64,000 bases of DNA, taken from positions 2,290,501 to 2,354,500 of the forward strand of contig NZ_AP024620.1 of NCBI RefSeq assembly GCF_023734095.1, written 5' to 3'. The DNA comes from Moorella sp. Hama-1 (lineage in GTDB: Bacteria > Bacillota > DSM-521 > Neomoorellales > Neomoorellaceae). The notes beneath the pieces were generated by a model. The model did no database searches. It was given only the letters and a program-made list of their open reading frames with translations, and had not been told where the DNA came from. Positions 2,834-15,046 of this stretch are shown here, piece by piece (position 1 is the first letter of the stretch; the number at the start of each line of letters is the position of its first letter). Made by a program: the position numbers and the translations under genes.

Positions 2834-3301
2834 TTATGGCATCAGGCCGGGGAAATCCAGCTGGCGCAGGGCCTCGTAAAGGACGAGGGCCACAGTGTTG
2901 GCCAGGTTTAAGGATCTCAGGCCCGGTCGCATGGGCACCCGCAGCACCCTGGCGCCCGCCGGTTCCAGGATGTCGGCGGGCAGGCCCCGGGTTTCGGGAC
3001 CGAAGACGAGAAAGTCCTCCGGCTGATACTCGACCTCCGTATAGCGCCGGTGGCCTTTGGTGGAGAGGTAATAGCAATTAGCGTCCGGGTAGGCCTCCTG
3101 GAAGGCCGTCCAGCTACTATGCTCCTGGATGTTCACCTCATTCCAGTAATCCAGGCCGGCGCGTTTGAGGTGCTTTTCGTCCAGGGTGAAGCCCAGGGGG
3201 TAAACAAGGTGCAGCATCGCCCCGGTGGCGGCGCAGGTACGGGCGATATTGCCGGTGTTATGGGGGATTTCTGGTTGGTATAGGACTACGTGGATGGGCA
3301 A
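2834..3301 (-). CDS. trmL: tRNA (cytidine(34)-2'-O)-methyltransferase
   Basis: SPOUT-class methyltransferase that methylates the wobble ribose of tRNA-Leu species. The 155-residue length is that of TrmL. Signatures are PEIPHNTGNIARTC at the N-terminus, VFGPETRGLP in the middle, and the C-terminal knot region MRPGLRSLNLANTVALVLYE that binds S-adenosylmethionine. It lies between the ylxP-type gene and the formyltransferase gene on the same strand with short gaps, so the three are probably co-transcribed. Confidence 0.95.
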   Translation of the reverse strand: MPIHVVLYQPEIPHNTGNIARTCAATGAMLHLVYPLGFTLDEKHLKRAGLDYWNEVNIQEHSSWTAFQEAYPDANCYYLSTKGHRRYTEVEYQPEDFLVFGPETRGLPADILEPAGARVLRVPMRPGLRSLNLANTVALVLYEALRQLDFPGLMP

Positions 3302-3839: not shown

Positions 3840-5765
3840 ATGGGCCAGAACCTCGCCCAAAAGATAATCGGCCAGCACCTGATTAGCGGTAAAATGGTAC
3901 CCGGTGAGGAAATTGCCATCCGTATCGACCAGACCCTGACCCAGGACGCCACCGGCACCATGGCTTACCTGCAACTGGAGGCCATGGGCATCCCCCGGGT
4001 GCGGACCAGGCTTTCCGTCAGTTACGTCGACCATAATACCCTCCAGACCGGCTTTGAAAACGCCGACGACCACCTCTTCCTCCAGGGTATCGCCGCCAAA
4101 TACGGTATTATCTTTTCCCGGCCCGGCAACGGCATCTGCCACCAGGTCCACCTGGAACGCTTCGCCGTCCCGGGGGCGACCCTGCTGGGTTCCGACAGCC
4201 ATACCCCCACTGCCGGCGGGGTAGGTGCCTTAGGGATAGGCGCCGGCGGCCTGGATGTAGCCGTGGCCATGGCCGGCGGCCCCTTCTATTTTAACATGCC
4301 GGCCGTCATCCGTGTCAATCTACACGGTCGTTTGGCCCCCTGGGTGAGCGCCAAGGACATCATCCTGGAGGTCCTGCGCAGGTTGAGCGTCAAGGGCGGC
4401 GTGGGCAAGATCGTCGAGTACGGCGGCGAAGGCGTGGCCACCCTTTCGGTGCCGGAACGGGCGACCATCACCAACATGGGCGCCGAACTGGGAGCCACCA
4501 CCTCCATCTTCCCCAGCGACGCGGTTACCCGGGCCTTCCTGGCTGCCCAGGGCCGCGCTGCCGACTGGGTAGAACTCCTGCCCGATGCCGATGCTACCTA
4601 TGATCAGGTCATCGATATCGACCTGGCCACCCTGGAACCCCTGGTGGCCCGACCCCACATGCCTGATAACGTGGCCCCCGTGCGGGAGGTAGGACCCATC
4701 AAAGTCAATCAGGTGGCCATCGGCAGTTGCACCAATTCTTCCTATGCCGATCTCATGCGGGTGGCGGCCATCCTCAAGGGTAAGCGGGTCCACCCGGAGG
4801 TCAGCCTGGTGATCGCCCCGGGGTCGCGCCAGGTCTTCCGCCTGCTGGCCCAGAACGGCGCCCTGGCCGACCTGGTCGCGGCCGGCGCCCGCATCCTGGA
4901 GTGCGCCTGCGGCCCCTGCATCGGCATGGGACAGGCCCCGCCTTCAGGTGGCGTTTCGGTACGCACCTTCAACCGTAACTTCCAGGGCCGCAGCGGTACG
5001 GCCGACGCGTTAATTTATCTGGCCAGCCCGGAAGTGGCCGCAGCCACGGCCCTCAAGGGTTACCTGGCCGATCCCCGGGAGCTGGGTGAACCCATAGAGG
5101 TACCCCTGCCGGCAAGTTTCCCGGTGGACGACGGCATGTTCATCTTCCCGCCGGAGGACGGTTTGAACGTGGAAATCCGGCGCGGGCCCAATATCAAGCC
5201 CCTGCCCCTGCCCCAGCCGCCGGCAGAAGTTATTAGCGCTCCGGTCCTTTTAAAGGCCGGCGACAATATTACCACCGACCATATTTCCCCGGCTGGCGCC
5301 AGATATTTACCCTTGCGTTCCAATATCCCGGCCCTGGCCGAGCACGCCTTCGAGGGAGTAGACCCGACCTTTGCCCGGCGGGCTAAGGAAGCGGGCCAGG
5401 GAATAATTGTCGGCGGGCAAAACTACGGCCAGGGCTCGAGCCGCGAGCACGCCGCCCTCTGCCCCATGTACCTGGGCATCAAGGCGGTCATCGCCCAATC
5501 CTTCGCCCGCATCCACCGCAGCAACCTGGTGAATTTCGGCATCCTGCCCCTGACCTTTATCGACCCGGACGATTACGACCGGATCGCAGCCGGCGACACT
5601 CTGGCCATCGACCTGAGCCAGGGACTTAAGCCGGAGGAAATAACGGTCACCAATACCAGCCAAGGCTTTACCTTCAAAGTGCGTCACGGCCTCTCCCCCC
5701 GCCAGCAGGCCGTCATCCTGGCCGGAGGGCTACTGAACTACACCAAACAGCAGGCAGGTAAGTAA
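3840..5765 (+). CDS. Aconitate hydratase
   Basis: Isomerises citrate and isocitrate through cis-aconitate with a [4Fe-4S] cluster. At 641 residues it is the short Aquifex/mitochondrial-like bacterial type rather than the roughly 900-residue AcnA. The three cluster ligands are Cys297 in GSCTNSS and Cys357/Cys360 in CACGPC. SDSHTPTAGGVGALGIGAGG is the substrate-side signature, and the swivel domain near the C-terminus has GQNYGQGSSREHAA. The start ATG follows GAGAGGAGGAACCTGCA and is unambiguous. It is monocistronic here, with its own promoter and a strong terminator. In an acetogen it would feed an incomplete TCA pathway toward 2-oxoglutarate. Confidence 0.95.
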   Translation: MGQNLAQKIIGQHLISGKMVPGEEIAIRIDQTLTQDATGTMAYLQLEAMGIPRVRTRLSVSYVDHNTLQTGFENADDHLFLQGIAAKYGIIFSRPGNGICHQVHLERFAVPGATLLGSDSHTPTAGGVGALGIGAGGLDVAVAMAGGPFYFNMPAVIRVNLHGRLAPWVSAKDIILEVLRRLSVKGGVGKIVEYGGEGVATLSVPERATITNMGAELGATTSIFPSDAVTRAFLAAQGRAADWVELLPDADATYDQVIDIDLATLEPLVARPHMPDNVAPVREVGPIKVNQVAIGSCTNSSYADLMRVAAILKGKRVHPEVSLVIAPGSRQVFRLLAQNGALADLVAAGARILECACGPCIGMGQAPPSGGVSVRTFNRNFQGRSGTADALIYLASPEVAAATALKGYLADPRELGEPIEVPLPASFPVDDGMFIFPPEDGLNVEIRRGPNIKPLPLPQPPAEVISAPVLLKAGDNITTDHISPAGARYLPLRSNIPALAEHAFEGVDPTFARRAKEAGQGIIVGGQNYGQGSSREHAALCPMYLGIKAVIAQSFARIHRSNLVNFGILPLTFIDPDDYDRIAAGDTLAIDLSQGLKPEEITVTNTSQGFTFKVRHGLSPRQQAVILAGGLLNYTKQQAGK

Positions 5766-5918
5766 GCTCCCGGCCCACCAGGCCCGCCGCGAGAACCATC
5801 GGCCGCCTTTACTGTATGTCGCCCTTAAAACTCTAGGTTAGACTTTCATGCCCCCAGGCGGCACCATCATTAGATGAAAATGGTAGAACCTATTTGCAGG
5901 TTAACCGAAGCAACTAAG

Positions 5919-5965
5919 AACCAGGCCCCGGGTCCGCCGTCGGGCGGCCCGGGGCCTGGTTTTAT
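5919..5965 (+). terminator. Terminator after aconitase
   Basis: A 14-bp stem AACCAGGCCCCGGG (5919-5932) pairs with its exact complement at 5948-5961 and runs into TTTT. A second GC-rich hairpin (GCCCGGCA/TGCCGGGC) follows near 5968-5991 and may serve the opposing small gene. Confidence 0.9.
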
Positions 5966-6010
5966 GCGCCCGGCACGGGTGCTGCCGGGCCTACTTTATT
6001 AATCCCGGCA

Positions 6011-6190
6011 TCATGAATTTTTGCCGGGAAAGACGCGGTAATAGGCCGGCTGAAGCGTCCTTGTTCTGGGCAGGTGGCGAAGGATGTTTATCTCATGATA
6101 GCAAAGGTCACAAAGAAGCCACCTGTCCACCTGCTGCTGGTGCTCCTGCCCGCACCTGGGGCAAAAACGAAGCCCCCTCCTCGCCTGCAT
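6011..6190 (-). CDS. Small zinc-ribbon protein of unknown function
   Basis: A 59-residue protein with a CPRCG...CDLC pair of Cys knuckles, which predicts one structural zinc. The remainder is basic and unrecognised. The ATG at 6190 is preceded by AGGAGGTG at ideal spacing, the main reason to believe the gene. A GTG at 6217 would add nine residues but has no ribosome binding site. It is divergent from the hydrogenase operon, so its upstream region overlaps the operon's control region. Confidence 0.6.
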   Translation of the reverse strand: MQARRGLRFCPRCGQEHQQQVDRWLLCDLCYHEINILRHLPRTRTLQPAYYRVFPGKNS

Positions 6191-6274
6191 GGCCAACACC
6201 TCCTGCCAGATTTCCACGCAAGGATTGTGCCAGGTAATTCCTGGTTGACCCCCGGCGCCTTCCGGTCCAGGTTT

Positions 6275-6312
6275 TAATGCAGGTGTGCATTACTTAATGC
6301 GAGGCGGCATTA
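6275..6312 (+). promoter_or_regulatory. Two tandem inverted repeats, probable activator-binding sites
   Basis: TAATGC-N6-GCATTA occurs at 6275-6292 and again at 6295-6312. The copies are two bases apart, so their centres are 20 bp (about two helical turns) apart. They lie about 50-90 bp upstream of the sigma-54 promoter, the usual place for a bacterial enhancer-binding protein. I infer that the activator encoded at 11981-14239 binds them. Confidence 0.75.
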
Positions 6313-6363
6313 AACACACCCGGGAGATTTAATAGAAGCACTGTTTCCTCTATTCTTACCCTA

Positions 6364-6379
6364 TGGCACGAGACTTGCA
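6364..6379 (+). promoter_or_regulatory. Sigma-54 (-24/-12) promoter of the hydrogenase operon
   Basis: TGGCACGAGACTTGCA matches the sigma-54 consensus, with GG at 6365-6366 and GC at 6377-6378 separated by exactly ten bases. Transcription should begin near 6390, some 30-40 bases before the first gene. Confidence 0.92.
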
Positions 6380-6429
6380 TTAACTTTCAGGCAGGGAGCT
6401 AAATTTGTTCATCAGGAGGGATGGCTATC

Positions 6430-7812
6430 GTGATTTATATTGATCGGGATCTTTGTACCGGTTGCCGCCGCTGCGCCGAAATCTGCCCCGCAGGGGCCAT
6501 TGAGGGCAACCAGGGTGAACCCCAGATAGTTAACAGCGAACTCTGTGTAAACTGTGGCCAGTGTGTGCAAATTTGCAGCGCCTATGCTTCCCCCTATACG
6601 ACCAGCCCCGAGACCATGGCTGCTAAAAACCGCGAACGCCACCTGCTCCCGGCGGCCGCACCTGAACCCTTATTTGCAGCCCATAACGAAAGCCACGAGG
6701 AGCTGGTCAAGGAAGCCCTGTCCCGGCCGGACCTTTTTAATGCCGTGCAGTTCGCCCCGGCGATCCGGTTCGCCCTGGCAGAGGACTTTGGCCTGTCGCC
6801 CCAGGTCGTTACCGTCGGCCGTATCGTTGCCGCCCTCAGGCGCCTGGGCTTTAAATATGTCTATGACACCAACTTTGCCGCCGACCTGACGGTGATGGAA
6901 GAAGGCTACGAGCTGCTGCAGCGCTTGCAGGGTGACGGTGCTTTACCCCTTTTTAGCTCCTGCTGCCCGGCCTGGGTTAAATTTGTCGAGCAGGCTTACC
7001 CGCAGCTAATCGCCAACCTCTCTACCTGTAAATCGCCCCAGCAAATGGCCGGTGCTATCTTTAAAACCTACACCTGCCAGCTTGACCCCGATTTGCGCTC
7101 CCGGCACCTCTTTGTAACGGCAGTCATGCCCTGCATAGCCAAAAAATTTGAATGTAACCGTCCCGAGCTCGGTGGTAGCTATGGCCGCGACGTCGACGCC
7201 GTCCTGACGACCCGGGAACTGGCCCACCTCATCAAGGATAAGGGTATTGACTGGCACAGCCTGGCTGAGGAAGAACCCGACCAGCCCCTGGGCAAATACA
7301 GCGGCGCCGGGGCTATCTTCGGCGTTACCGGCGGGGTCACCGAGGCCGTTCTAAGGACGGCGGCCGAAGTTGTAGGCGGTAAGCCCTTGGAGGAGATTGA
7401 GTTCCATGAGGTACGGGGTATGGCCGGTACCCGCAGGGTTAATATCAACCTCGGCAAAGAACAGTTGGAAATTATTATCGTGGCCGGGCTGAAGAATGTC
7501 GTCCCCATCCTGGACGACCTGATAGCCGGAAAGGCCAGCTTCCACTTTATGGAGGTCATGGCCTGCCCCGCCGGCTGTCTCAGCGGCGGTGGCCAGCCGA
7601 AAATCCTGGTAGAAACCTATCGCGGCTCCATCTATCGCCAGCGGGCGGCCAGCATCTACAACCACGACCGGGACCTCCCCGTGCGCAAGGCCCATGAAAA
7701 TCCCTCCATTAAACAGCTCTACGCCGATTTTTTAGGACAGCCCCTGAGCGAGTTATCCCACTCCCTGCTCCACACCCATTATACCGTGAGGAGGTCAGAT
7801 GATAGTGTTTAA
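6430..7812 (+). CDS. [FeFe] hydrogenase catalytic subunit (H-cluster protein with two [4Fe-4S] clusters)
   Basis: Reversible proton reduction/H2 oxidation subunit. The N-terminus carries two ferredoxin-type clusters (CTGCRRCAEIC and CVNCGQCVQIC). The H-cluster motifs are all present, numbering from the ATG at 6421: SSCCPAW at 179-185, MPCIAKK at about 236-242 and MACPAGCLSGGGQP at about 380-393. It lacks the NuoG-like N-terminal [2Fe-2S] extension of typical HydA; that module is a separate gene at 11044. The ATG at 6421 abuts AGGAGGG with no spacing, so I prefer the GTG at 6430, nine bases from it. First gene of a six-gene sigma-54 operon; its end overlaps the next start by 14 bases. Confidence 0.93.
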   Translation: MIYIDRDLCTGCRRCAEICPAGAIEGNQGEPQIVNSELCVNCGQCVQICSAYASPYTTSPETMAAKNRERHLLPAAAPEPLFAAHNESHEELVKEALSRPDLFNAVQFAPAIRFALAEDFGLSPQVVTVGRIVAALRRLGFKYVYDTNFAADLTVMEEGYELLQRLQGDGALPLFSSCCPAWVKFVEQAYPQLIANLSTCKSPQQMAGAIFKTYTCQLDPDLRSRHLFVTAVMPCIAKKFECNRPELGGSYGRDVDAVLTTRELAHLIKDKGIDWHSLAEEEPDQPLGKYSGAGAIFGVTGGVTEAVLRTAAEVVGGKPLEEIEFHEVRGMAGTRRVNINLGKEQLEIIIVAGLKNVVPILDDLIAGKASFHFMEVMACPAGCLSGGGQPKILVETYRGSIYRQRAASIYNHDRDLPVRKAHENPSIKQLYADFLGQPLSELSHSLLHTHYTVRRSDDSV

Positions 7813-8335
7813 TTCTCTCATTATCGCCGACCCGCGTAACTGTACCGGGTGCAAGGCCTGTGAAGTCGCCTGCGCCATTGCCCATATGGAAAAACCGGTC
7901 CTCACCGCCGGGATGGTTACCGAGCCCCTGTATAGCCGGGTCTTTGTGGTTAAAAGCGGCAGTGCCTCCCTCTCCGTCCGTTGCCGCCACTGTGAAGACG
8001 CGCCCTGTGCCCGGGCCTGCCCGGTAGGGGCCATTACCCAGAAAAACAACGTGGTCCTGATTAACTCCGACAAGTGCATCGGCTGTAAAACCTGCGCCAT
8101 TGTTTGCCCCTTTGGCTCTATCGAGTTGGTCTACAGGGAAAAAGAGCACAAGGTGGTGGCCCATAAATGCGATCTCTGCGAAGGGCGGCCGGGGGGGCCG
8201 GCCTGTGTGGAGGCCTGTTCCTCCAAGGCTCTCTCCCTGCTGGACGGCAATTCCCTCCGCAGCCTGATTCAAAACCATCGCCTGGCCTCCGTCCAGGATT
8301 TGATGAACTGGGTTCACATCCACCAGTCTGCCTAA
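7799..8335 (+). CDS. HydN/HycB-like ferredoxin subunit with multiple [4Fe-4S] clusters
   Basis: A 178-residue electron-transfer protein. Cys-rich blocks appear in order: CTGCKACEVAC, CRHCEDAPCARAC, CIGCKTCAIVC, and CDLCEGRPGGPACVEAC, which together fit four cubane clusters in the HycB/HydN/DmsB pattern. No signal peptide or membrane segment is seen, so it should be cytoplasmic. It overlaps the catalytic subunit gene and has GAGGAGG before its ATG. It probably passes electrons between the H-cluster subunit and the NADH- or ferredoxin-binding subunits. HycB-type proteins also connect hydrogenase to formate dehydrogenase in hydrogen-dependent CO2 reductases, but no formate dehydrogenase catalytic gene lies beside it. 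Confidence 0.88.
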   Translation: MIVFNSLIIADPRNCTGCKACEVACAIAHMEKPVLTAGMVTEPLYSRVFVVKSGSASLSVRCRHCEDAPCARACPVGAITQKNNVVLINSDKCIGCKTCAIVCPFGSIELVYREKEHKVVAHKCDLCEGRPGGPACVEACSSKALSLLDGNSLRSLIQNHRLASVQDLMNWVHIHQSA

Positions 8336-8356
8336 CGGAGAAAGAAGGAGGGCTCC

Positions 8357-8758
8357 ATGATAGCTACCACTGCTTTGATCCTCGATCCAGAAAAGTGTAT
8401 CCGTTGCGAAATATGCACCCGCCTGTGCTGGACCGGGGCCCTGCAGGGCGAGAATGACGGCGCGGCCCTTATCCTGCGCTTTCTACCCGAACTCTGCCCG
8501 AAGGAATGCCGTATCTGCATCGATAAATGCCCCGTCTGGGCCTTAAGCCGGGGACCCGGACGGCAAAAGGAAGAGTGGTATTTAAAATATCCCCGCTGCC
8601 GGATTTGTGGCCGTCCCAGCCTGCCCTATCTTCCCCTGGTAGGAGAGGCCAACACCCCCGGCATGGCCGAACCTTTATGCCCTACCTGCCGGCGCGAGCT
8701 GGGCGCGCAAAAGCTGGAGGAAACGGTCCAGGGAAAGATTCGGCCCGCCGAGCTGTGA
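8357..8758 (+). CDS. Ferredoxin-like protein with C-terminal zinc-ribbon-like Cys pairs
   Basis: A 133-residue protein. The N-terminal half has CIRCEICTRLC followed by CPKECRICIDKCP, which is consistent with one or two Fe-S clusters, although the spacing in the second set is irregular. The C-terminal half has CRICGRP and CPTCRREL, two CxxC pairs that could bind zinc or another cluster. It sits between the HycB-like and NuoE-like genes with GAAGGAGG upstream. I do not recognise a named family. It is probably an accessory electron-transfer or assembly subunit specific to this operon type. Confidence 0.75.
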   Translation: MIATTALILDPEKCIRCEICTRLCWTGALQGENDGAALILRFLPELCPKECRICIDKCPVWALSRGPGRQKEEWYLKYPRCRICGRPSLPYLPLVGEANTPGMAEPLCPTCRRELGAQKLEETVQGKIRPAEL

Positions 8759-8786
8759 TAGATGTCCGAGGAGGGTGGTACAACCG

Positions 8787-9239
8787 ATGCCAGCCGAGAC
8801 CATAAAGCAAATTGTGGCCCGCTACCGGGAAGAAAAGGGCGCCCTGATCCCCGTCCTGCAGGCAACCCAAGAAGCCCTTGGATACCTGCCCCCGGAGGCT
8901 TTAAAGGAGATTGCCGCCGCCATGGCCCTGCCCTTGAGCACCGTTTACAGCGTCGTGACCTTTTATGCCCAGTTCCACCTGCAGCCCCGCGGCCGGCATG
9001 TTATCCATGTCTGCCAGGGAACGGCCTGCCACATCCGCGGCGGCAACCATATCTTAAATAAAATCAAAGAGCTTTTACAAATCGATGCCGGGGAAACAAC
9101 GCCTGATCTGCGCTTTACCCTGGAGCCGGTGGCCTGCCTGGGAGCCTGTGCCCTGGCCCCGGTAATGAGTATCAGCGGGGATACCTATGGCCACTTAAAA
9201 CCCGATATGATCGCCGGCATCCTCGAAAAGTACCAGTAG
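8787..9239 (+). CDS. NuoE/HydC-like [2Fe-2S] subunit
   Basis: Thioredoxin-fold [2Fe-2S] protein of 150 residues, the small partner of the flavin subunit in NADH dehydrogenases and electron-bifurcating hydrogenases. The cluster ligands are the first pair in VCQGTACH and the second pair in CLGACALAP. The helical N-terminal segment with GYLPPEALKEIA is typical of NuoE. I place the start at the ATG at 8787, eight bases after GAGGGTGG; a GTG at 8775 is in frame but overlaps that site. It is followed within 11 bases by the NuoF-like gene. Confidence 0.93.
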   Translation: MPAETIKQIVARYREEKGALIPVLQATQEALGYLPPEALKEIAAAMALPLSTVYSVVTFYAQFHLQPRGRHVIHVCQGTACHIRGGNHILNKIKELLQIDAGETTPDLRFTLEPVACLGACALAPVMSISGDTYGHLKPDMIAGILEKYQ

Positions 9240-9250
9240 GAGGAGTTATC

Positions 9251-11029
9251 ATGCGCCGTATACTAGTCTGCGCCGGGACCGGGTGTGTCGCCTCCCACTC
9301 CCGCCAGGTTACCGCCCGGCTGAAGGCCGCCCTGCACGCGCACCACCTGGAAGACAAGTTCCAGGTGGATAATACAGGCTGCCATGGTTTCTGCGAGCAG
9401 GGGCCGCTGGTGATTATCGAGCCGGAGGAAATCCTCTACTGCCGGGTGCAGGAGGAAGACGTGGAAGCCATCGTCACCGAACACCTGGAGCAAGGTCGCC
9501 CCGTTGAACGTCTTCTCTATCAGGACCCGGTAACAAAGGAAAAAATAGCCACTTATAACCAAATCAATTTCTACCGGCAGCAGTCGCGTCACGTCCTGAA
9601 AAACTGCGGTCATATCAATCCGGAAAATATCGACGCCTACCTGGCCGTCGAGGGCTACCAGGGGTTACAAAAGGCCCTCGCCCTGCCCCGGGAAGAAGTC
9701 ATTAATATAATCAAGCAAGCGGGCTTGCGGGGGCGCGGCGGGGCCGGTTTCCCTACCGGACTGAAGTGGGAGTACACCTTTAAAGCCCCCGGCGACCGGA
9801 AGTATGTAGTCTGTAACGCCGATGAGGGCGACCCCGGCGCCTTTATGGACCGCAGCGTCCTGGAGGGCGACCCCCACGCCGTCCTCGAAGGCATGCTCAT
9901 CGCCGCCTACGCCATCGGCGCTCAGGAGGGGTATATCTACGTCCGGGCCGAGTATCCCCTGGCCGTACAGCGGTTGCGGATCGCCCTGGCCCAGGCCCGG
10001 GAAAGGGGTTTTTGCGGCGAGCATATCCTGGGGACGGATTTTAGCTGCGACCTTCACATCCGGGAAGGGGCCGGGGCCTTCGTCTGCGGGGAAGAAACGG
10101 CCCTCCTGGCTTCCATCCAGGGGGAGAGGGGTATGCCCCGGCCGCGGCCGCCCTTCCCCGCCCGGCAGGGCCTCTGGGGCCAGCCCACCAACATAAACAA
10201 CGTGGAAACCTATGCCAACGTGCCGTTGATCTTACGCCGGGGTGCCGGCTGGTATGCTTCCCTGGGTACGGCGAAAAGCAAAGGCACCAAAATCTTTGCC
10301 CTGACGGGGAAGGTCAAAAACACCGGCCTGGTGGAAGTCCCCATGGGCATTACCCTGCGGGAGATTATCTTTAACATCGGCGGCGGCATCCTGGAGGACC
10401 GGGGGTTCAAAGCGGTCCAGATCGGCGGTCCTTCCGGCGGGTGCTTGCCGGCCGAACACCTGGATCTCCCGGTGGACTACGATTCCCTCACTGCGGCCGG
10501 GGCCATGATGGGTTCCGGCGGCCTGGTGGTTATGGACGATAGCACCTGTATGGTTGAAGTAGCCCGTTTTTTCCTTAATTTTACCCAGGCGGAATCCTGC
10601 GGTAAATGTACCCCCTGCCGGGAGGGCATCCAGCAGATGCTGGCCATCCTCACCCGCATCACCCGGGGTCAGGGCCGAGAGGGCGACCTCGAGCAACTTG
10701 AGCAACTGGCCCGGGTGATCAAGGGTACGGCCCTTTGCGGCCTGGGGCAGACGGCGCCCAACCCGGTCCTGTCCACCCTGCGCTATTTCCGCGCCGAATA
10801 TGAAGCCCATATCCGGGACCACAGGTGCCCGGCGAAAAGCTGCCGGGATCTCCTTGCCTACCACATCGACCCGGAGAAATGCAACGGTTGCACCCGTTGC
10901 CGGCGCCGCTGCCCGGCGGGAGCCATCAGCGGCGAGGCTAAAAAACCCCATACCATTAACCTGGAACTGTGCGCCCGTTGCGGTACCTGCCTGGATCTAT
11001 GCCGCCCGAAAGCTATTTATGTTGAGTAG
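9251..11029 (+). CDS. NuoF/HydB-like flavin subunit, NAD(P)-binding
   Basis: Binds FMN and NAD(P)H and is the likely site of electron bifurcation in HydABC-type enzymes. Domains in order: an N-terminal [2Fe-2S] thioredoxin-like domain (CAGTGCVAS, then CHGFCEQGP); the nucleotide/FMN domain with GRGGAGFPTG at 161-170; the SLBB region; the [4Fe-4S] motif ESCGKCTPCREG at 448-459; and a C-terminal pair of ferredoxin clusters (CNGCTRCRRRC and CARCGTCLDLC). The 592-residue length and domain order match HydB of bifurcating hydrogenases. Its ATG has AGGAGGAG upstream. It should form a core with the NuoE-like and NuoG-like proteins encoded on either side. Confidence 0.94.
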   Translation: MRRILVCAGTGCVASHSRQVTARLKAALHAHHLEDKFQVDNTGCHGFCEQGPLVIIEPEEILYCRVQEEDVEAIVTEHLEQGRPVERLLYQDPVTKEKIATYNQINFYRQQSRHVLKNCGHINPENIDAYLAVEGYQGLQKALALPREEVINIIKQAGLRGRGGAGFPTGLKWEYTFKAPGDRKYVVCNADEGDPGAFMDRSVLEGDPHAVLEGMLIAAYAIGAQEGYIYVRAEYPLAVQRLRIALAQARERGFCGEHILGTDFSCDLHIREGAGAFVCGEETALLASIQGERGMPRPRPPFPARQGLWGQPTNINNVETYANVPLILRRGAGWYASLGTAKSKGTKIFALTGKVKNTGLVEVPMGITLREIIFNIGGGILEDRGFKAVQIGGPSGGCLPAEHLDLPVDYDSLTAAGAMMGSGGLVVMDDSTCMVEVARFFLNFTQAESCGKCTPCREGIQQMLAILTRITRGQGREGDLEQLEQLARVIKGTALCGLGQTAPNPVLSTLRYFRAEYEAHIRDHRCPAKSCRDLLAYHIDPEKCNGCTRCRRRCPAGAISGEAKKPHTINLELCARCGTCLDLCRPKAIYVE

Positions 11030-11043
11030 ATGGGGGTGAAAAA

Positions 11044-11967
11044 ATGCCAGGTGTTTCTTTAACCATCAATGATCAAAAAATCCGGGTGCCGGCCGGGACT
11101 ACCATCCTGGAGGCGGCCAAGGAATTAAATATCGCTATACCCACACTGTGTCACGATAAACGCCTTTCCCCCTTCGGCGCCTGTCGTCTCTGCGTAGTCG
11201 AAGTCCAGGGGAGGAAAAACCTGCCTGCCGCCTGTGTCACCCCGGCGGAAGAGGGCATGAACGTCCTGACGGAATCGCCGGCGGTAGTCGAAGCCCGGCG
11301 GACCATCATCGAACTCCTGTTGGCCAACCATCCCCTGGATTGCCTGACCTGCGAAAAAAGCGGCAACTGCCGCTTGCAGGACTATGCCTATCGCTACGGG
11401 GTCAAGAAAACGCCCTTCGAGGGAACGAGGGACCCGCTTCCCCTGGACGACAGCAACCCCTTTATCATCCGGGATCCCCACAAGTGCATCCTCTGCGGCA
11501 AGTGCGTACGGGCCTGCCAGGAGATTCGCGGCCAGGCCGTCCTCGGCTTTGCCTTCCGGGGCCCGGCCACCAGGATTGTTCCACCCCTGGATACATCCCT
11601 GGGGGAATCCGATTGCGTCTTTTGCCAGAACTGTGTGGCCGTCTGTCCCACCGGCGCCCTGCGGGACAAATACCTGGCCGGCAAGGGCCGCTGGTGGGAA
11701 TTCCAACCGGAATCCGTCACCTGTCCCTTCTGCGCCAATGGCTGCCACTTTTACCTCTTGAGGAAGGGGGGCAAAGTGGTGGCGGTGGCTGCCGGCGGCG
11801 CGGCACCAGGCCGGCCCATGTGCCTGCGCGGCCGCCTGGCCCTGACCCTCATTTTCTGCGAGGAACCGCCCCAGCCCCAGATTAAGACGGAAAAAGGCTT
11901 TGCGGCCGTCAGCTGGACTGAGGCCCTGGGTCTGGAAGAGCTGGCCGGAAAACTCTGGCCCAAATAA
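11044..11967 (+). CDS. NuoG-like Fe-S subunit ending after a formate-dehydrogenase-type [4Fe-4S] domain
   Basis: A 307-residue electron-wire protein. It begins with a [2Fe-2S] plant-ferredoxin domain (CHDKRLSPFGACRLC), followed by the His/Cys-ligated cluster region (HPLDCLTCEKSGNC), then two ferredoxin clusters (CILCGKCVRAC and CVFCQNCVAVC). It ends with CPFCANGCHFYL...GRPMCLRGR, the N-terminal [4Fe-4S] domain of molybdopterin oxidoreductases. The molybdopterin catalytic domain that normally follows in NuoG/FdhA is missing; translation stops within about 30 residues of the expected domain start. It supplies the module that usual HydA carries at its N-terminus. It ends 13 bases from the convergent regulator with no terminator between them. 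Confidence 0.88.
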   Translation: MPGVSLTINDQKIRVPAGTTILEAAKELNIAIPTLCHDKRLSPFGACRLCVVEVQGRKNLPAACVTPAEEGMNVLTESPAVVEARRTIIELLLANHPLDCLTCEKSGNCRLQDYAYRYGVKKTPFEGTRDPLPLDDSNPFIIRDPHKCILCGKCVRACQEIRGQAVLGFAFRGPATRIVPPLDTSLGESDCVFCQNCVAVCPTGALRDKYLAGKGRWWEFQPESVTCPFCANGCHFYLLRKGGKVVAVAAGGAAPGRPMCLRGRLALTLIFCEEPPQPQIKTEKGFAAVSWTEALGLEELAGKLWPK

Positions 11968-11980
11968 TTCACTGCCGGGA

Positions 11981-14239
11981 TTATTGATGCTCCAACCCGT
12001 ACTTTTTGATTTTGCGCACTACCGTCGACTGGTTTACCCCCAGCTTTTCGGCCACCTGGTAGGTGCTCCTGTACTTCTCCAGGGCCTTCAACAGCAACTG
12101 TTTTTCAACCTCTTCAACGGCCTCTTTCATGGGCATAATGTCTTTTACCAGCATATGCGTGCTGCGTCGCGCCTGGTCGTCGCGGAGGTAATAGGGTAAA
12201 TGCTCGGGGAGGATCTCCGTCCCTTCTACCAGGACGAAAAGCTGCTCGATGACGTTATGGAGCTCCCTTACATTGCCGGGCCAGGGATAGGCCAGGAGAT
12301 ACATCCTGGCCCGGCGGCTGATCTTTTTTTCTTGATTGTAACGCTGGTTCAGCCGGGCCATAAAGTGGTCGATGAGGGCTTCGATATCTTCCGGCCGTTC
12401 CCGCAAAGGGGGAATGGTCAGGGGGATTACATTCAGGCGGTAATACAGATCCTCCCGGAAGGTCCCCTCCTTGACCATCTGCAAAAGGTTTTTATTGGTC
12501 GCCGAGATAATGCGAATATTGAGCTGGATCTCCTTGATCCCCCCCACCCGTACCAGGCGCTGCTCCTGTAAGACCTGCAGGAGCTTAACCTGAAGTTTTA
12601 AGGGGAGTTCAGCGATCTCGTCCAGGAATACCGTACCCCCGTTGCCCAGCTCCAGCTGGCCCATCTTCCCCTCCCGGTTGGCCCCGGTAAAGGCCCCCCG
12701 CTCGTAGCCGAAAAGCTCGGATTCCAGCAGATTTTCCGGAATAGCGCCGCAGTTAATTTTCACAAACGGCCCCTTACCGCGCTCGCTTAAGGTATGGATC
12801 AGGCGGGCGACCACCTCCTTACCGACACCCGATTCCCCCAGGATCAACACTGTGGAATCCACCCTGGCTACCCGTTCCGCCAGGTAGAGGACCCTTAACA
12901 TCCGCGGACTTTCAATGATAATGTTTCTCGCTTTCAGCAAGTCCATGACCCCGGAGCTGGGCCTGTCGCCGGGGCTTTTATAAAAACTGACGATATGCAT
13001 CAGGTTGCTGGTCGCCCGCGACAACAGGTCGCTCTTCTGTTCCAGGAGATAGGGCAGGCACATATCGATCTCCGCCAAGCCTTGGTAAACGGCTATGGCT
13101 TTCTCCCGGCAGGAGTGATAGCCGCAGGCGCCACAGTTAAGTTCATCGGCCGGCGTGAATTTGTTGGTCAACCGCAATATACGTTGAATATCTTCCTCCC
13201 GGGGGAAGGGCAGGGGCGATTGTTTATTGTGAAAGCTCCGCGCCAGGTCGGGGGCGGGTATTTCCGGTTCGCGCGTCTCTTGATAGCTGCGGTAGTAGGC
13301 GGCTACCAGTTCCTTTCTCTTTACCTGGTTGACCTCGACGCCCATCCCGGGCCCCATGATGCAGCCGTCGCAAAAAAGGGCGTCAATTAAGCGGGGCCGG
13401 ATCTCCCCCCGCGCCAGGCCCTCCAGGGCCGCCAGCACAGCTTCTTTCCCTTCCACCAGCAAGAGATCCTGGTTGGCAATATCCAGGGCCGTACCCATGC
13501 TCCGGCTGAGTCCCCCGGGCAGGGGAAAAAGGCGGCTGACTGCCACCGGCGGGCTGTCCAGGGCTGCCGCAACCCCGGGATGCTCCAGATGCTCAACTGC
13601 AAGTAACTCCTTAATTTCCGCAAATGTCAGTACATAGTCTACAGCGCCGGCTACCTCCGCAGCCAGGATCTCTTCTTTTTTGGCGATACAGGGGCCGATA
13701 AAGACCACCTTAACGGGACCCAGGTGTTGCTTGAGGAGCCTTCCCAGGGCTATGGAAGGAGAGACTACCGGTAACAGGTAAGGAGTGAGGGACGGGAAGT
13801 GCCTCTCGACCAGATTGACCACTGCATAGCAGGCCGTGCTGATGGCGGGAGTCTTCCTCTGTTTTAACACCCTTTGATACTCCCTGGCTACCAGGAGGGC
13901 CCCCACGGCCACCTCCCATACCCGGGTAAAACCCAGTTTCTTCAGGGCACCGGCCACCTGGCCGGTGGTCCAACCAGGAAAGGCCGCCGGAAAGGATGGC
14001 GCCAGGCAGGCTACCATTTCTTCGTGCTCCTTCAAGGCCGCCAGGACGGCCGCCTGGCTGTCGGCCACCTGTTTGGCCCCCTGGGAGCAAAAAGCCAGGC
14101 ACATGCCGCAACTGATGCAGCGTTCGGCGATGACCTCCGCCTGGCCCTGGTTTATTCTGATGGCCTTCACCGGGCAATTGCGCACACAGGAATAACACTG
14201 GCGGCACCTGCCGGTGGCAGTGTTCACGATCCCACCCAT
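11981..14239 (-). CDS. Sigma-54-dependent activator with a degenerate [FeFe]-hydrogenase sensor domain
   Basis: A 752-residue enhancer-binding protein. Domains in order: two ferredoxin clusters (residues 12-52), a hydrogenase H-domain fold (about 65-330), a further Cys cluster CGACGYHSC...C (369-394), the AAA+ sigma-54 domain with GESGVGKE (468-475) and GAFTGA (515-520), and a Fis-type helix-turn-helix at the end. In the H-domain the first motif reads STACYA (134-139) instead of TSCCP, the second is GPCIAKKEE (182-190), the third [10 protein letters not shown] (290-299). Catalysis is therefore unlikely, but a redox or H2 sensing role is plausible. ATG 14239 has GGGAGG seven bases upstream. 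A weak sigma-A promoter (TTGTTT, 17 bases, TAAACT) lies at 14288-14316. Confidence 0.93.
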
Positions 14240-14555
14240 TTTTCTGCCTCCCGAGCCTGACACCAGGATATTAGGTACTACCTCACTAGTTTAACCTTTT
14301 TCCCAAAGAAAAACAACCTTCATAATTCTGCCTGCTAATGGCAATAGCCGCCCCGGCATAAGTACCAAAAGGCCGCCCGGGCATTCATGCCGGGAGGCCT
14401 TCTGAGTCATAACCGCTACTATGATTTTAACTATCTGGGACGTTTCCCGTCACGGCGGGTGGCCTTCTTGCTGCAGCCAGTGATGATTTTAGCGCCGTGG
14501 CCAGGCACTCCGGGTTACGCCAGGTGGTTTTATCTTCGTAACGGCAGGATAAATG
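14240..14555. other. Intergenic region between the regulator and a ferredoxin gene
   Basis: Apart from the regulator's probable promoter (14288-14316) and a hairpin at 14369-14401, I see no gene. The stretch 14402-14555 has no open frame with a ribosome binding site on either strand. Confidence 0.5.
14369..14401 (-). terminator. Probable terminator for the ferredoxin gene at 14556
   Basis: AAGGCC (14369-14374) pairs with GGCCTT (14396-14401), with an inner CCGGGCAT/ATGCCGG stem. On the minus strand the stem is followed by TTTT, so it fits termination of leftward transcripts. Confidence 0.5.
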
Positions 14556-14930
14556 TTAGCCGTGGATCAGTACCGGCAGGCAATGGGTGCAGACCCAGGT
14601 GCTTTCACCCCGGTGGCGGGCAAAAAGGAGCACGGCCTCCCCTTCACCGGCGCCGCAACGGGCGCAGCGGGGAGCTTCACCCTGACTCCTTTTGGCGGCC
14701 AGGTTGGCCTCGGCAGCCACGGGATCGAAGGCCGGTGCTTCCCGTTCCTCAATGGTCAAGGCGCCGGTGGGGCAGACGTTCAAGCAAACCCCGGCGCCGT
14801 CGCACAGCTCCTCCCGCAGGACCCGGGCCTTACCGTTTACCAGCTCAATAGCCCCTTCAGCACAGGGGGTGACGCACAGGCCGCAGCCGGTGCACTTTTC
14901 GTCGTCAATGCGGACAATCTTGCGCTTCAT
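14556..14930 (-). CDS. Two-cluster ferredoxin with C-terminal CxxC pairs
   Basis: A 124-residue protein. The N-terminal 2x[4Fe-4S] ferredoxin has CTGCGLCVTPC and CDGAGVCLNVCP; in the second set the usual second Cys is replaced (CDGAGVC), as in several clostridial hydrogenase-linked ferredoxins. The C-terminus has CARCG and CTHCLP, likely another metal site. The protein resembles the ferredoxin-type partners seen next to hydrogenase sensors. It sits upstream of the hydrogenase regulator on the same strand but is separated from it by about 300 bases and a hairpin. The start at 14930 uses GGAAGGTGG five bases upstream. Confidence 0.82.
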   Translation of the reverse strand: MKRKIVRIDDEKCTGCGLCVTPCAEGAIELVNGKARVLREELCDGAGVCLNVCPTGALTIEEREAPAFDPVAAEANLAAKRSQGEAPRCARCGAGEGEAVLLFARHRGESTWVCTHCLPVLIHG

Positions 14931-15046
14931 AACAACCACCTTCCGGTCTCAATCTTTTTAACCAGCCGTTCCTTTATTATTCTATCACCCTGGCCGGAAG
15001 ATAGTTGTGATACCTTTTTTAAAACCGTTGTGATCCTCATCACTAA

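Follow-up and report, generated by a model that had tools for sequence, protein, structure and literature searches.

Locus organisation and control region

Moorella is an acetate-making, hydrogen-using bacterium. The window considered here, a 64,000-nucleotide stretch of the Moorella sp. Hama-1 chromosome (NZ_AP024620.1, positions 2,290,501 to 2,354,500, forward strand), carries a six-gene [FeFe]-hydrogenase operon (6421–11967). Upstream of the operon are a sigma-54 promoter and two copies of the palindrome TAATGC-N6-GCATTA, and downstream of it is a convergent gene for a sigma-54 activator with a hydrogenase-like input domain (Table 1). Region 6275–6379 is very probably the control region of the operon, on which the product of the convergent gene, a one-component sensor and activator, would act through the predicted pair of sites; this assignment is drawn from sequence comparison.

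Table 1. Features of the hydrogenase locus (positions are those of the window)
Feature	Position	Strand	Remarks
Small open reading frame (ORF), 59 aa, CPxCG/CxxC, behind the divergent promoter	6011–6190	−	coding status uncertain
Divergent sigma-54-like promoter, TGGCACAATCCTTGCG	6217–6232	−	near-perfect in the window genome; probably same enhancer pair
Upstream activator site 1 (predicted), TAATGC-AGGTGT-GCATTA	6275–6292	.	exact palindrome
Upstream activator site 2 (predicted), TAATGC-GAGGCG-GCATTA	6295–6312	.	20 bp from site 1
Sigma-54 promoter of the hydrogenase operon, TGGCACGAGACTTGCA	6364–6379	+	perfect −24/−12 element
HydA-type catalytic subunit, 463 aa, group A, HDCR HydA2-like	6421–7812	+	PF02906, 3e-87
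HydN/HycB-like polyferredoxin, 178 aa	7799–8335	+	
Ferredoxin-like Fe–S protein, 133 aa	8357–8758	+	weak Fer4 matches
NuoE-like subunit	8775–9239	+	PF01257, 1e-53
NuoF-like flavoprotein subunit, 592 aa	9251–11029	+	PF01512, PF10589
HoxU/NuoG-like Fe–S subunit, 307 aa	11044–11967	+	PF13510, PF10588; HoxU model, 1e-60
Activator: two [4Fe-4S], sensory [FeFe]-hydrogenase H-domain, C-terminal FeS motif, sigma-54 AAA+, helix–turn–helix (HTH)	11981–14239	−	profile search

The catalytic subunit HydA has its best PDB match in HydA2 of the hydrogen-dependent CO2 reductase (HDCR; 7qv7, 6e-171). The operon promoter, TGGCACGAGACTTGCA, ends 41 bp ahead of the HydA start codon at 6421; the genome has nine exact TGGCAY-N5-TTGCW sites in all, this one included. 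The GC of its −12 element is located at 6377–6378, and the predicted transcript start lies near 6390. The genome has a single gene for sigma-54 (PF04552). The original prediction had described a canonical TGGCAC-N5-TTGCA promoter and two palindromes with centres 20 bp apart, and both descriptions hold: the promoter is a perfect match to the consensus, and both palindromes are exact and have this spacing. The pair is positioned at the usual enhancer distance upstream of the promoter. According to a genome-wide motif search, the two sites are the sole exact matches to TAATGC-N6-GCATTA in the 3,324,617-bp chromosome.

Four one-mismatch palindromes occur elsewhere in the genome, three of them within predicted ORFs. 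No sigma-54-like site was found within 400 bp of any of the four, and further genomic targets of the site were rejected on these grounds.

The activator and its sensory domain

The activator gene faces the operon across a gap of 13 bp. It starts either at the ATG used by its orthologue, as in Table 1, or at an alternative GTG at 14263. The protein matches the profiles Fer4, Fe_hyd_lg_C (4e-42), FeS (PF04060), Sigma54_activat (PF00158, 1.2e-69) and HTH_50 (2.3e-16), in agreement with the earlier description of this gene as encoding a sigma-54 activator with a hydrogenase-like input domain. The AAA+ domain contains the GAFTGA motif and the Walker motif GESGVGKE, and the predicted structure matches the AAA+ structures of NtrC1 and FlrC in a Foldseek search. 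The sequence attributes of a sigma-54 enhancer-binding protein are present: an AAA+ domain, an HTH at the C terminus and, elsewhere in the genome, a gene for sigma-54. The AlphaFold model has a mean predicted local distance difference test (pLDDT) score of 86.7, the H-domain exceeding 90 over most of its length; the fold of the H-domain is assigned from sequence profiles and model confidence, the listed Foldseek matches being to AAA+ domains.

The H-cluster cysteines C145, C192, C298 and C301 are invariant across 46 aligned full-length relatives. C298 and C301 form a CxxC motif, whereas the catalytic HydA of the operon has CxxxC. The proton-relay cysteine of the H-domain is replaced by A144, and C377, C380, C385 and C402 are arranged as Cx2Cx4Cx16C. 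Loss of the proton-relay Cys299 and a C-terminal Cx2Cx4Cx16C motif characterize group C and group D hydrogenases, which are putative sensors (PMC8163306). Judged by this signature, the input module of the activator is HydS-like and resembles those of groups C and D. The PAS domain of group C gave no match in the window activator, which differs in this respect from its clade relatives L061 and L074, where PAS is present.

A small ferredoxin-like gene (14556–14939, minus strand) is located just upstream of the activator gene on the same strand; its product is a possible redox partner.

Conservation in Moorella and the paralogous activator

Eleven Moorella genomes, the window's own included, were compared. 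The activator and the tandem site were found in two of them, the window genome and G005, which is almost certainly M. thermoacetica DSM 521. G005 has the operon intact, the activator (92%) and all 24 half-site bases of both palindromes unchanged, and carries TGGCATGAAATTTGCA at the position equivalent to the operon promoter. The nine other genomes lack both the activator and the tandem site. A search of related genomes for joint occurrence of repeats and activator had been proposed with the original prediction, and its outcome is in line with that prediction.

The window genome also encodes a paralogous sensor–activator (G000:C1:2071514–2073736), which adjoins hydABC. It has the same domain order and 49% identity, and its presence in the same genome makes it a candidate for driving the window operon in place of the convergent gene product. 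However, its HTH is different (LKRSTLNEMIKRY), most genomes of the genus have it beside hydABC and lack the TAATGC pair, and it has its own strong sigma-54 promoter and different repeats directly downstream. Control of the window operon by the paralogue is extremely improbable.

The sigma-54 promoter of the paralogue drives a gene for a conserved protein of about 62 aa (ELNEAYARLDERYNCLRSNWEWF...RVDQN) without a Pfam match, as observed in the window genome (G000) and in loci L047–L053, L039, L040 and L057. No sigma-54 promoter directly before hydABC was found in the Moorella loci examined.

Association of the site with the HTH type

A sensor-domain scan of named genomes, which form a separate collection, gave 80 loci, and those bearing a sigma-54 domain were grouped by HTH. 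The window-type HTH (VNQST(V/I)VRK and close variants) is found in 18 loci, nearly all of them directly upstream of NuoE-NuoF-HydA. The region from the activator 3′ end to the next gene was searched for TAATGC-N6-GCATTA with two mismatches at most. In these Bacillota, which are unrelated to Moorella, the site is present in 18/18 loci with the window-type HTH, compared with 0/27 loci with other HTHs; shuffled sequences gave a mean of 1.1 loci and a maximum of 4. An unsupervised search for gapped palindromes, which allowed spacer lengths from 0 to 12, ranked TAATGC with spacer 6 first, and the 20-bp spacing recurs in many site pairs of these loci. In the tree, the window activator is sister to the window-type-HTH clade (Shimodaira–Hasegawa-like approximate likelihood ratio test, SH-aLRT, 99). 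The sigma-54 elements of some of these loci are weak, e.g. TGGCATGTAATATGCA, and none was found in the scored stretch of L084 and L097; L097 has a strong element at 3285, which the gene caller placed inside NuoE.

The motif was also sought on its own. The pattern ATGC-N6-GCAT-N6-ATGC-N6-GCAT was found in 19 of 398 genomes of the phylum, some of which may overlap the named set of 80 loci, and a reversed control pattern was found in none. All but one of the tandem loci (18/19, two Moorella loci included) are at a window-type-HTH activator gene or at the window's own operon. Outside Moorella, 16/17 tandem sites abut or lie near such an activator gene, and the next operon encodes an [FeFe] hydrogenase in 14 of those 16 (16/19 with the Moorella loci). 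The exceptions are a HAD-phosphatase/aldolase locus (L178), an Etf/thiolase locus (L188) and a site without an activator (L189). As the non-hydrogenase loci L178 (2708) and L188 (9647) combine this HTH and tandem site with PAS or CBS sensors, the site tracks the HTH and not the pathway. The sensor part is variable while the HTH, site and operon are constant: the H-domain may or may not be accompanied by the FeS motif or PAS, and domain scans found sensors without an H-domain in L180 (Fer4-FeS-AAA), L182 and L185 (both Fer4-AAA).

Palindromes with a 6-bp spacer suit many dimeric regulators, and the pair might bind a different regulator, such as a repressor, with the neighbouring activator controlling something else. 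This is very unlikely, given that site presence tracks the HTH type of the activator, that matches to the motif alone lead back to these activators in 18 of 19 cases, with the Moorella activator lying across the operon, and that the pair precedes a sigma-54 promoter at a normal enhancer distance. Owing to the conservation in G005, the split between HTH types and the outcome of the motif-only scan, the regulatory pairing of activator, site and operon is well supported at the level of sequence, and with it the earlier proposal that the convergent gene encodes the activator of the operon.

Published expression of the orthologous operon

Two soluble hydrogenases have been reported in M. thermoacetica DSM 521 (PMC13040438, PMC13391211). 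The NADP+-reducing one is encoded by six locus tags, Mothe_c19180–19230 (PMC13391211). According to RNA sequencing (RNA-seq), the log2 fold change of these genes is +7.9 to +14.3 on H2+CO2 relative to glucose (PMC13040438) and +7.3 to +14.5 on methanol relative to glucose (PMC13391211); on CO relative to glucose, it is just −0.6 to +3.4. The genes of hydABC (Mothe_c17260–17280), in contrast, fall. The regulator of Mothe_c19180–19230 is unnamed in those parts of the two accounts that were covered (PMC13040438, PMC13391211).

G005 contains exactly two NuoF loci, about 185 kb apart, and the six-gene one is the orthologue of the window operon. A distance of 185 kb over 192 locus tags corresponds to 0.97 kb per tag, and the genome average is 0.97 kb per gene. 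G005 thus has one of its two soluble hydrogenases encoded by six adjacent genes that follow hydABC at a distance of about 192 loci, and we infer that the orthologue of the window operon is Mothe_c19180–19230.

Proposed mechanism and input signal

In the proposed mechanism, the activator would bind both TAATGC-N6-GCATTA palindromes on the same DNA face and, once bound, assemble an AAA+ ring, which would open the operon promoter and probably the divergent promoter too. The trigger would be reduction of the sensory H-domain and the Fe–S clusters, most likely by H2, and the operon product would be a six-gene NADP+-reducing [FeFe] hydrogenase for H2 uptake. DNA binding, ring assembly, promoter opening and an input of H2 or Fe–S redox state are steps that we infer.

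Several points weigh against this reading. The exact locus is common to only two genomes, and many relatives have one or both sites lying against, or partly within, the 3′ end of the activator gene. The 18 loci with the window-type HTH share descent and therefore do not represent 18 independent events. Short-activator loci of family f51 have the same site and operon with only a ferredoxin-like sensor, which means that control in general cannot require the H-domain. The equation of the window operon with Mothe_c19180–19230 is made by gene order and elimination. Finally, glucose is the reference in every published comparison, and sugar repression may therefore contribute to the contrasts. That the induction is mainly relief from glucose repression, and not activation by an H2 sensor, is unlikely, however: all comparisons are with glucose-grown cells, but CO-grown cells, which are likewise free of glucose, show the small change given above.

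The original prediction had further suggested that the operon may be switched by redox or H2 state. The hydrogenase-like sensor is in place; such a signal would be a possible input and has only indirect support, from the RNA-seq data on the orthologous operon (PMC13040438, PMC13391211). The HydS-like character of the sensor argues for H2 as the signal, as do the response to H2+CO2 and the weakness of the response on CO; the relatives without an H-domain argue for a redox input.

The chances appear even that the activator is a kinase-free, one-component H2 receptor, in which a sensory [FeFe] module is wired to a sigma-54 AAA+ motor. Such a receptor would explain the very large H2-linked induction of an uptake hydrogenase, and its HTH/site pair would be reused across Bacillota with sensors graded from a full H-cluster to a bare ferredoxin, a gradation from sensing H2 to sensing redox state. 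Possibly, though with less than even likelihood, the activator binds and controls as proposed but responds through its [4Fe-4S] clusters to the general redox or ferredoxin state, the H-domain being an electron-entry or structural module that does not sense H2 specifically. The loss of the H-domain in L180, L182 and L185, which keep the same HTH, site and hydABC operon, speaks for a redox signal, as does the induction of the operon during growth on methanol. On the other hand, all 46 full-length relatives in the alignment retain the H-domain and, without exception, its four H-cluster cysteines, and CO, also strongly reducing, induces weakly.

Relation to known systems

Sensing of H2 or formate that ends at a sigma-54 activator of hydrogenase genes is known from HoxBC/HoxJ/HoxA and FhlA. 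The Hox system has a separate [NiFe] sensor and a kinase, and FhlA senses formate; in Moorella, by contrast, a single protein is predicted to act as both sensor and activator, with an [FeFe]-like sensor part. The window operon is like that of the NADP+-reducing hydrogenase of M. thermoacetica (Mothe_c19180–19230) in being a six-gene, HDCR-HydA-like, NuoE/NuoF-containing operon. The Hyt operon of C. autoethanogenum is likewise of this kind.

As in TmHydS and TamHydS of groups C and D (PMC8163306, PMC13104023), the Moorella protein has two N-terminal [4Fe-4S] clusters, an H-domain without Cys299 and a C-terminal Cx2Cx4Cx16C motif; unlike them, it has the sensor fused directly to a sigma-54 AAA+ domain and an HTH. 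Group C of HydDB comprises kinase-, chemotaxis- and phosphatase-linked forms only, in contrast to this sigma-54 AAA+ fusion. The input-domain types of the activator were already listed in 2019 (PMC6615313), and proposals of [FeFe] sensors go back years. In the portion of Nie et al. (2019; PMC6615313) covered here, Fer4, Fe_hyd_lg_C and FeS appear among the input types of Clostridiales sigma-54 activators, and the Moorella activator shares these domains. The main text and part of the regulon table of that work contain no hydrogenase target and no TAATGC-N6-GCATTA among the quoted motifs, whereas a predicted site and target operon are assigned here. A binding site and target operon of such activators were not found in the literature examined, a body that leaves out supplements and most subscription papers.

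According to a 2022 review, the H2-sensor role of sensory [FeFe] hydrogenases was still putative, direct physiological evidence being wanting (PMC8924675). With a defined promoter and a defined (predicted) DNA site at the present locus, and with the orthologous operon published as very strongly induced, this question is open to direct experiment. Many distantly related bacteria have this pairing of activator and site next to hydrogenase operons, which makes the role of the ‘sensory’ hydrogenase directly testable. The TAATGC motif is transferable as a means of finding hydrogenase regulons in other anaerobes, and the locus is a candidate H2-inducible switch for gas fermentation.

Other sensor–activator arrangements

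Activators with a RATLY-type HTH constitute a third clade, located upstream of [NiFe] hydrogenase operons in Desulfosporosinus, Thermincola and others (L107, L108, L110, L113, L120, L123, L125, L128, L130, L134, L135, L138 and L139). The palindrome TGTCTA-N5-TAGACA is present in 9/15 loci of this HTH group. There are also two-gene versions (L089, L104, L111, L112, L118 and L121), in which the gene for a hydrogenase-like sensor that lacks the sigma-54 domain precedes the gene for a distinct sigma-54 activator and genes of the hydABC type.

The divergent promoter and small ORF

The divergent sigma-54-like site is absent from the original prediction. In G005, it has a perfect consensus (TGGCACAATCCTTGCT), and the two promoters flanking the palindrome pair are two of only nine exact sigma-54 sites in that genome. 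Judging by this arrangement, the divergent promoter probably uses the same enhancer pair as the operon promoter. The 59-aa ORF behind it keeps its frame, start, stop and cysteines in G005 (85%). Its substitutions relative to G005 are spread evenly over the codon positions (4, 4 and 5), so that constraint on the protein is not demonstrated and the divergent transcript may be a small RNA or encode a weakly constrained peptide. In an Rfam search of 5700–6500, no RNA element reached the threshold. A strong G+C hairpin at 5926–5960, between the aconitase gene and the small ORF, is kept in G005 and is positioned as a possible bidirectional terminator.
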